From an uncultured Ideonella sp. (GTDB lineage Bacteria > Pseudomonadota > Gammaproteobacteria > Burkholderiales > Burkholderiaceae): a stretch of DNA of 7,144 nt. A model generated the notes under the pieces. That model searched no databases. It saw only the letters and a list, made by a program, of their open reading frames with translations, and was not told where the DNA came from. Shown one piece after another: positions 2,221-7,144 of the stretch; position 1 is the stretch's first letter; each line of letters starts with the position of its first letter. The translations under genes were made by a program, and so were the position numbers. The stretch lies in NCBI GenBank assembly GCA_946479475.1, contig CAMLGG010000266.1:1-7144 (forward strand), in the 5' to 3' direction.

Positions 2221-2775
2221 ATGACCCAGGAAATCACGCTGTTGCTTCGCCGTGCCGCTGACGGAAACCGTCAGGCCGCGGATCAGGTCGTAGCCTTGCT
2301 TTACGCCGATTTGCAGCGCCTGGCGCGCAGCCGCCTGCGTCGCGCGGCCGACATGACCCTGCTGGACACCACCTCGCTGGTGCACGAGTCCTACCTCCGG
2401 CTCGCGCGGGGAGAAGGGCCGGAGTTCGCCGACCGCCGGCACTTTCTCGCCTACGCCGCCCAGGTGATGCGCAGCATCGTGGTCGACCTGCTGCGCTCCC
2501 GCCAGGCCGATCGCCACGGCGGCGGCGCCTGGCACGTCACCCTCAACACCGAGATCGGCGAGTCGGTGATGCGCCACGAGGACGAAGTCCTGCGCGTGCA
2601 CGAGGCCCTCGACGAGCTGGCAGTGACCGAGCCGCGCCTGGCCCAGGTGGTGCAGATGCGCTACTTCGGCGGCCTGTCGGAAGCCGAGATTGCCGACTGC
2701 CTGGGCATCACGGAGCGAACCGTGCAGCGCGACTGGCAGAAAGCCCGGCTCTTCCTTTCGCTGGCCCTGAAATAG
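2221..2775 (+). CDS. ECF RNA polymerase sigma factor (Sigma70_ECF/TIGR02999 type), probably kinase-controlled
   Basis: This 184-residue protein has both ECF domains. Sigma-2 covers residues about 8-95, including S-L-V-H-E-S-Y-L-R-L (52-61) and the H-F-L-A-Y-A-A-Q-V-M-R segment (74-84). Sigma-4 covers about 125-183, with P-R-L-A-Q-V-V-Q-M-R-Y-F-G-G-L-S (138-153) and a helix-turn-helix around E-I-A-D-C-L-G-I-T-E-R-T-V-Q-R-D-W (156-172). It would direct core RNA polymerase to an unknown regulon. Where typical ECF factors carry an acidic D-A-E-D-like motif before L-V-x-E, this one has D49-T50-T51-S52; Thr51 aligns with the Thr common in this family. In related sigma factors such phosphorylatable residues replace the negative charge needed to bind polymerase. 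No anti-sigma gene follows; a Ser/Thr kinase begins 4 nt downstream. The start at ATG 2221 is supported by the promoter and by family length. Confidence 0.88.
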   Translation: MTQEITLLLRRAADGNRQAADQVVALLYADLQRLARSRLRRAADMTLLDTTSLVHESYLRLARGEGPEFADRRHFLAYAAQVMRSIVVDLLRSRQADRHGGGAWHVTLNTEIGESVMRHEDEVLRVHEALDELAVTEPRLAQVVQMRYFGGLSEAEIADCLGITERTVQRDWQKARLFLSLALK

Positions 2776-5540: not shown

Positions 5541-5858
5541 ATGCCAACCGTCAACGTCTCCGTCTCTTCTCCCGGCGTCATCGCGGTCAGCCCGGATCCG
5601 GTCGCGGTAAGCGGGCCCGACCAGACCATCACCTTCAACCTGGTGTCTTCGGGCTACTCGTTCCGCGCCACCAATGCGGTCGTCGTCCCGCAGCCGGCAT
5701 CGCAGTTCCCGAATCCGTCGAGCACGGTCTCGGCCACGCAGGCCACGCTGCTGGATGCGAACACGGACTCCAATAGCTACAAGTACGCGGTGCACCTGGT
5801 GAAGAACAGCGACGGCTCGCCGCTGAGCCTCGATCCGACGATCCAGAACGGTCAATAA
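5541..5858 (+). CDS. Small Ser/Thr-rich beta-type protein of unknown function, third gene of the sigma-kinase operon
   Basis: The 105-residue product starts at ATG 5541, 7 nt after the kinase stop, with TGAGGA (5531-5536) as ribosome-binding site overlapping that stop. It has no signal peptide, membrane segment or cysteine. About a quarter of its residues are Ser or Thr, and there are only three Lys/Arg against six Asp. Alternating hydrophobic residues (V-N-V-S-V, V-I-A-V, T-I-T-F-N-L) and turns such as S-P-D-P, S-G-P-D and D-P-T-I-Q-N-G suggest an all-beta, perhaps Ig- or cupredoxin-like sandwich without copper ligands. From memory it resembles short proteins that databases label DP-EP family, a descriptive name without a function; I could not check this. 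Position suggests a kinase substrate, adaptor or the effector of the pathway. The Ser/Thr content is compatible with being phosphorylated but proves nothing. Confidence 0.8.
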   Translation: MPTVNVSVSSPGVIAVSPDPVAVSGPDQTITFNLVSSGYSFRATNAVVVPQPASQFPNPSSTVSATQATLLDANTDSNSYKYAVHLVKNSDGSPLSLDPTIQNGQ

Positions 5859-5896: not shown

Positions 5897-5899
5897 AAT

Positions 5900-5935
5900 G
5901 CGGGCCGTCCCCCCATGCTTGCACGATAGGCCCGC
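5900..5935 (+). repeat. 7-bp inverted repeat that competes with the next hairpin
   Basis: GCGGGCC (5900-5906) pairs exactly with GGCCCGC (5929-5935) around a 22-nt loop. Its right arm shares 5933-5935 with the left arm of the following terminator-like hairpin, so the two full-length structures cannot form together. Such partial exclusion is the layout of an attenuator, but the shared part is only 3 nt. Confidence 0.35.
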
Positions 5936-5946
5936 CCTCCGTGCCG

Positions 5947-5955
5947 TGCTCGAAT
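5947..5955 (+). promoter_or_regulatory. Possible extended -10 promoter for the multicopper oxidase
   Basis: TGC followed by TCGAAT (5950-5955) fits an extended -10 element, four of six positions matching TATAAT. No good -35 is present at 16-18 nt. Transcription would start near 5962, inside the hairpin loop, giving a leader of about 26 nt that lacks the left arm and so leaves the ribosome-binding site exposed. Evidence is thin. Confidence 0.25.
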
Positions 5956-5973
5956 CGCCGACGCACTGCCACC

Positions 5974-5978
5974 GGAGG
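5974..5978 (+). promoter_or_regulatory. Shine-Dalgarno of the multicopper oxidase, inside a hairpin arm
   Basis: GGAGG lies 9 nt before ATG 5988 and fixes the start. All five bases are within the right arm (5974-5981) of the terminator-like hairpin, so access depends on whether the left arm at 5933-5940 is in the same transcript. Confidence 0.7.
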
Positions 5979-5987
5979 GCGTTTTTC

Positions 5988-7144
5988 ATGTCCGTGTTGT
6001 CCCGTTTTCGTGGCGAGGCTGCTGCCGCCCTCGCGCCCTGGCTGCTGGCCGGGGCGCTGCCGGCCGGGGCCGCCACCTTGAACGAGTTGCCCGTGCTGAA
6101 GAGCCAGGGCGGCGTGCTGGACGTGCTGGTCGTCGCTCGCGGCGACAGGATCACCCACCTCGGCGAGTTGAAGACCCACGGCTGGGTCTACGACATCTGC
6201 CCGCGCCCGGCCGACGGCAGCGACACCTGCCCGGCGAAGCCACCCGGCACCAACCTGTACGGCGGCACGCGCCTGCAGTTGCAGCCCGGTGACACGCTGA
6301 AGATGAGATTGGTGAACAAGCTGCCGATGGTGCTCGACTCCGAGCACGCGGGCGAGCCCGGCCACCACTACCTCGCCTCGAATCCGACCAACCTGCACAC
6401 CCACGGGCTGATCGTCTCTCCCCACTACCCGACGAAGAACAACCCGACCTACGGCGACAACGTCTTCGTTCTGACGCTGAACCCGGACAACCCTCCGCCG
6501 GGTGATGACGACGTGGTCCATGGCGACGTGCGCTTCGGCTTCACCGAGTACGAGATCAAGATCCCCAGGAGCCACCCTTCGGGCCTGTTCTGGCTGCATG
6601 GCCACATCCATGGCCTGACGCTGAACCAGCTCAGCTCGGGCATGTCGGCGATGATCACCATCGGCGACCCTTCCGAGTACCTGTGCAAGAACGCCGAGTG
6701 CGGCGACTTCCTGAAGAAGCTGCCGGTGCGCCACCTGATGCTCAAGGACACCCAGGTGCTCAAGAGCGGCCGGATGGTGACCGAGCAGTACCCGGTGTTC
6801 TGCAAGACGAAGGCGACGCGCAACGAGGAGTCGCGCCAGGGCTCGTGCGCCGGCATCCACGGCCGGCCCACCGGCGGCGGCCGCTGGTACTTCAGCGTCA
6901 ACGGCCAGGGCTATCCGCACATCCCGGTGGCCCAGGGCAACGGCGAGATCTGGCGCATCGTCACCGCCTCGGCCACCGTCACCTACGACCTCGGCCTGCG
7001 CGACGACCTGACCGGCGGCGACATGCTGATGCAGGTGCTGTCGGTCGACGGCGTGGCCGTGCAGCCCGACCGCAACGCCACCGGCGCCGAGCTGCGCAGC
7101 ATGACCGGCACGCGCATCACCACCGTGCCCTGCCCGGCCGACCT
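5988..7144 (+). CDS. Exported multicopper oxidase, N-terminal part
   Basis: The frame starts at ATG 5988 and is open to the window end, giving 385 residues without a stop. The N-terminus has arginines, a hydrophobic Ala/Leu stretch and a likely signal-peptidase site near A-G-A/A (28/29), so it acts in the periplasm or outside. Two of the copper motifs of the family are visible: H-T-H-G (137-140) and F-W-L-H-G-H-I-H-G (201-209), giving His137, His139, His204, His206 and His208 for the trinuclear copper site. G-M-S-A-M-I-T-I-G-D (218-227) closes cupredoxin domain 1. The type 1 copper site and remaining histidines belong to the C-terminal domain beyond the window. Six or more cysteines (71, 81, 233, 238, 272, 287) suggest disulfides in the oxidising periplasm. 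Such enzymes oxidise phenols, metals or Cu(I) with reduction of oxygen to water; the substrate cannot be told from this part. Confidence 0.85.
   Translation, partial: MSVLSRFRGEAAAALAPWLLAGALPAGAATLNELPVLKSQGGVLDVLVVARGDRITHLGELKTHGWVYDICPRPADGSDTCPAKPPGTNLYGGTRLQLQPGDTLKMRLVNKLPMVLDSEHAGEPGHHYLASNPTNLHTHGLIVSPHYPTKNNPTYGDNVFVLTLNPDNPPPGDDDVVHGDVRFGFTEYEIKIPRSHPSGLFWLHGHIHGLTLNQLSSGMSAMITIGDPSEYLCKNAECGDFLKKLPVRHLMLKDTQVLKSGRMVTEQYPVFCKTKATRNEESRQGSCAGIHGRPTGGGRWYFSVNGQGYPHIPVAQGNGEIWRIVTASATVTYDLGLRDDLTGGDMLMQVLSVDGVAVQPDRNATGAELRSMTGTRITTVPCPAD

Follow-up and report, generated by a model that had tools for sequence, protein, structure and literature searches.

A probable ECF43-type sigma factor and its candidate transmembrane kinase in a lineage resembling Ideonella

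Results

Genes at the locus

The window, as we call the whole stretch of 7,144 nucleotides analysed here, contains the gene for an ECF sigma factor followed on the same strand by those for a Hanks-type Ser/Thr kinase and a small protein (Table 1). The sigma ORF, ending in a stop codon at 2773-2775, matches TIGR02999 with 175.1 bits (cut-off 126.15) and PF07638 with 145.7 bits (cut-off 21.1), both of them models that cover ECF43. Among the 120 database matches listed, of 7,661 proteins above threshold, the best 18 are 80-97% identical to the window sigma, and the named sources include Ideonella, Aquincola and Paucibacter.

Table 1. Features of the window and the evidence for each
Feature	Position	Strand	Basis
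ECF sigma factor, TIGR02999/PF07638, 184 aa	2221..2775	+	Profile matches; start column common to most close relatives
Region 2.2 motif D49-T50-T51-S52, at the canonical DAED-type site, Asp49 retained	2365..2376	+	Alignments to SigL (6dv9_F) and to the EcfK orthologue in L226
Thr51, likely main phosphosite (predicted)	2371..2373	+	Alignment with EcfK T51; PMC13147305
Linker Thr107, possible second phosphosite (predicted)	2539..2541	+	Aligned with EcfK T106 (multiple alignment) or T104 (pairwise)
Linker Thr110	2548..2550	+	Thr in 32/32 rows of alignment A1
Hanks-type Ser/Thr kinase, 917 aa	2780..5533	+	Pkinase, 134.8 bits; best solved match PknS (9eed_A), 161.1 bits over residues 23-386
Third operon gene, 105 aa, SO1698-like predicted fold	5541..5858	+	Fold prediction; Asp98-Pro99 invariant in 23 aligned rows
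ORF, open at its end	5898-7142	+	No Pfam match at 0.001

The ATG of the kinase gene (2780) lies 4 nt past the sigma stop codon, as originally predicted, and the kinase domain (residues 95-379) has all the catalytic residues: K126, D222 of the HRD motif, N227 and D240 of the DFG motif. A hydrophobic segment near residues 411-431, which probably spans the membrane, is followed by a TPR-like C-terminal part. From its sequence and position, this kinase would be the natural candidate for the enzyme that activates the sigma factor. Six window ORFs were scanned at E 0.001 and none matched an anti-sigma family, so that, within these 7 kb, the claim that no anti-sigma gene is visible also holds.

The product of the third gene, an uncharacterised protein, has the same predicted fold as SO1698, a name that did not appear among the literature matches listed, which does not prove its absence. 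In at least 16 of 93 related loci, this gene likewise comes after that of the kinase. The ORF at the end of the window has multicopper-oxidase-like histidine motifs, as judged by eye; the window itself was its only match among the loci compared, in which it is not a conserved neighbour. Divergently upstream of the sigma gene, on the reverse strand (1419-1916), there is a gene that weakly matches a diguanylate-cyclase model (SiaD; 21.5 bits, E 1.2e-4, far short of the cut-off) and whose GGDEF motif looks degenerate by eye; of 158 kinase-linked loci, 36 have a relative of this gene in the same divergent position upstream.

The D-T-T-S motif and canonical ECF sigma factors

With the ATG at 2221 as start, codons 48-52 read L-D-T-T-S (Leu48, 2362-2364; Asp49, 2365-2367; Thr50, 2368-2370; Thr51, 2371-2373; Ser52, 2374-2376), directly followed by L-V-H-E. 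The original prediction had placed the motif at 2362..2376; the motif is there, but it starts at 2365, the preceding codon being that of Leu48. Its presence before LVHE is not a chance feature of one sequence: in alignment A1, 15 of the 16 rows at least 80% identical, window row included, have DTTS and the other one has DTSS, and in the full set of 32 rows, 30 have Thr at position 51, with Ser and Arg in one row each.

Canonical ECF sigma factors were represented by sigma region 2 (PF04542) matches from five genomes that also yielded TIGR02999 sequences. The motif pattern was found in 21 of 40 fetched domains, the other 19 being left out, and nine further sequences were picked by eye from 13 pattern matches in 30 loci, of which the other four were false matches. 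All 30 of these controls have an acid at position 52, 25 have one at 51 and 10 at 49, and none has Ser or Thr at 51. The profile of alignment A1 matched the canonical ECF factor SigL (6dv9), which has the same two-domain ECF layout, with 22.8 bits and placed Thr51 on a Glu and Ser52 on an Asp of SigL (6dv9_F). The single sigma sequence had no match among solved structures at E 0.01. We also obtained an AlphaFold model from the shallow alignment A1, but its mean pLDDT was 63.5, with residues 38-50 below 50, and nothing was drawn from it.

The two canonically acidic positions are therefore Thr and Ser here, while the acid that is kept, Asp49, sits where only a third of the controls are acidic. 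The window sigma is non-acidic at both the Glu and the Asp position of DAED and has Thr at the former (T51, S52), a pattern expected of ECF43 factors. Because Asp49 is retained, however, the motif is not acid-free, as it typically though not obligatorily is in ECF43 (EcfK has QATE), and the claim that the acidic motif had been replaced holds for residues 51 and 52 but not for residue 49.

Alignment with known phosphosites

In the literature covered, there are few worked cases of direct phosphorylation of ECF43 sigma factors: EcfP, EcfK and one from Hyphomonas (PMC8999054). EcfP of Vibrio parahaemolyticus has the motif STTA, the second Thr of which is phosphorylated by the neighbouring kinase, PknT (PMC8999054), and EcfK of Xanthomonas citri is phosphorylated at T51 by the neighbouring PknS; the sole EcfP site is reported to correspond to EcfK T51, and the ECF43 group consensus is given as QTTA (PMC13147305). 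None of the literature matches listed in a further search contains the name ECF43, which is not proof of its absence.

As a stand-in for EcfK, which was not itself aligned, we used an orthologue in locus L226, from a genome of the family of a Lysobacter locus (L058). Its sigma motif is QATE, and the kinase downstream matches 9eed_A, from the deposited structure of PknS (entry code from PMC13147305), with 722.6 bits. Counted from the start MAELPITE, the L226 sigma has Thr51 and T104/T106/S108/S110, coinciding with the published EcfK numbers, although translation could also begin at an ATG lying three codons before it. Thr51 of the window aligns with Thr51 of this orthologue, the two sigmas being 36% identical. 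The proposal that Thr51 corresponds to the EcfP phosphosite is thus supported indirectly, through L226 and the published equivalence of both sites (PMC13147305), and not by a direct alignment with EcfP.

The window pair resembles EcfK-PknS in the order of a sigma gene and a transmembrane Hanks kinase gene, in the number of Thr51 and in having linker Thr, and the match of its kinase to PknS includes the N-terminal extension in addition to the kinase domain. It differs in the motif (DTTS versus QATE), in the linker (VTLNTE versus VTLTISLS) and in the third gene after the kinase; also, the scan of six window ORFs gave no match to a type VI secretion family. As for EcfP-PknT, compared by motif and not by direct alignment of the sequences, the motif of both sigmas includes a pair of Thr, of which the latter is the site mapped in EcfP (PMC8999054), but the EcfP motif lacks an acid and the window sigma keeps Asp49.

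Position 51 across TIGR02999 sigma factors

The comparative set comprises 284 distinct sigma sequences, gathered from 320 loci to which the window was added; the window sigma is counted among them. Eighty loci were found by region 4 words and the others by TIGR02999 searches or by refetching those places; none was picked by its motif, although the TIGR02999 model does cover the motif columns. Thirty-nine sigma matches were dropped (32 duplicates, five of low score and two short).

Position 51 is Ser or Thr in 256 of the 284 sequences, and only 19 have an acid at 52. Ser/Thr51 occurs in 182 of the 208 sequences whose gene is immediately followed by a kinase gene in the same orientation, in 55 of 57 with a kinase in another arrangement within 2.5 kb and in all 19 without a kinase within 2.5 kb. 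Nine of these 19 have flanks of at least 5 kb on each side, and all nine have Thr51, although one of them (L179) has a kinase 4.0 kb away; among the remaining ten, flanks are short in several. Kinase adjacency was not found to predict Thr51 in the 284 sequences, although the genomes of the 19 may have kinases farther away, and a Thr at this position is, by itself, no proof of a phospho-switch; where no kinase is near, Thr51 may be conserved on other grounds or be the target of a kinase encoded elsewhere.

Among the 208 kinase-linked sequences, window included, Asp49 is found in 123 and any acid at 49 in 130, so Asp49 is a frequent variant and does not exclude the window sigma from ECF43. Position 107 is S, T, D or E in 174 of these sequences. 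In the 26 that lack Ser/Thr51, the kinases all keep their catalytic residues. Ser or Thr at 50 or 51 is present in 198 and neither in 10, nine of which carry an acidic residue at one of the positions 49, 51 and 52, bearing in mind that an acid at 49 is common anyway. Three related sequences (L345, L348 and L349) have Glu51, within a DTEA motif, beside kinases with intact catalytic residues. In a FastTree phylogeny from which the motif columns were left out, Glu51 has a single origin, and position 51 must have switched between Ser/Thr and other residues at least 16 times.

Two further patterns were considered and set aside. An acid at 52 is more frequent without Ser/Thr51 (6 of 26) than with it (9 of 182; Fisher p 0.005), but we make no claim of charge compensation, since its independence from kinship was not shown on the tree: only nine independent pairs lie on supported branches, with which a sign test cannot reach 0.05, and random pairings gave 0.7 the same way and 0.1 the other way for acid at 52, and 1.0 versus 0.1 for acid at 51 or 52. 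Joint loss of phosphosite and kinase activity was suggested by four kinases, next to sigma factors lacking Thr51, that seemed to be without HRD in a pattern search; in the alignment they have HCD, with the catalytic Asp present, and the catalytic columns K/D/N/D are found in 260 of 265 aligned kinase domains, the other five having gaps there.

Separately, four kinase-linked sigmas (L209, L213, L214 and L333) have motifs of the form S/A/G-K/Q-G-E/D, with an acid at 52 and no Ser/Thr50-51, and the kinases of the first three have HCD instead of HRD. The genomes G535 and G543 each yielded at least 20 sigma factors matching TIGR02999 at E 1e-30, a strong expansion.

Discussion

We consider it likely that the locus encodes an ECF43-type sigma factor and a cognate PknS-like transmembrane kinase, and that the former is activated by phosphorylation of Thr51 and, probably, of a linker Thr. 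This reading draws on the sequence, the gene order, homology, the alignment with the EcfK phosphosite, the catalytic residues of the kinase and the contrast with canonical ECF factors. The unphosphorylated sigma has no acid at positions 51 and 52, where canonical ECFs hold the beta' subunit, and its basal activity would be low. The kinase would sense a periplasmic signal and phosphorylate Thr51, and probably also Thr107 in the linker; the phosphate would provide the negative charge with which the sigma factor could bind RNA polymerase and direct its regulon.

Two of the alternatives are narrower forms of this explanation, and for this reason their probabilities and that of the main reading do not add up to one. 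The better of them, for which we see somewhat less than an even chance, is that the phosphate can sit on Thr50, on Thr51 or on a Thr of the linker, with the main site shifting between lineages. This would fit the presence of Ser or Thr at 50 or 51 in nearly all kinase-linked sequences, the residues found at position 107 and the behaviour of EcfK, which needs T51 or T106: its T51A mutant is functional and T51A/T106A fails (PMC13147305). However, Ala or Pro is common at position 50, a phosphosite at 50 is not reported in the literature covered, and the linker alignment is ambiguous, with T107 facing T106 in the multiple alignment and T104 in the pairwise one. A linker Thr that might be phosphorylated is nevertheless present under either alignment, and a T51A mutant of the window sigma may therefore well stay active.

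The original prediction was stricter, with Thr51 (or possibly Thr50 or Ser52) as the sole activating site and a protein that is inactive until phosphorylated, as in EcfP, for which a single site has been mapped and which is reported to be inactive by itself (PMC8999054; PMC13147305). The near invariance of DTTS among close relatives would agree with such a switch, but we regard it as rather unlikely: Asp49 is retained, the linker, which carries additional sites in EcfK, contains Thr107 and Thr110, and the functional T51A mutant of EcfK makes sole dependence on Thr51 doubtful. It is further weakened because Thr51 is equally conserved without a kinase within 2.5 kb and because 26 of the 208 kinase-linked sequences do without Ser/Thr51. 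Conservation of Thr51 for structure or polymerase contact, with the kinase acting elsewhere, would explain why sequences lacking a kinase within 2.5 kb have Ser/Thr51 no less often than those with a kinase immediately behind them, but is the least probable reading, given that the aligned Thr is directly phosphorylated in EcfP and EcfK (PMC8999054; PMC13147305) and that the same genomes may have distant kinases.

With the preferred reading of a sigma factor activated at Thr51 and probably at the linker, the locus would be, as far as can be judged from sequence, an ECF43-like sigma-kinase pair of known mechanism in another lineage, one that looks related to Ideonella. A broader proposal, which we consider improbable, is that the sigma factor, the kinase and the Asp-Pro protein of SO1698 fold, maybe self-cleaving, form a three-gene module of the Burkholderiales in which Thr51 would not be obligatory; the charge would be supplied on Thr50, Thr51 or the linker, and L345, L348 and L349 would have a fixed phosphomimetic Glu51 while keeping the catalytic residues of their kinases.

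In all, the conservation of Thr51 is only loosely linked to the adjacency of a kinase in the sequences collected, and natural variants such as DTTS, DTQA, DTGA, DTEA and SKGE would make the charge-supply model testable without designed mutants.
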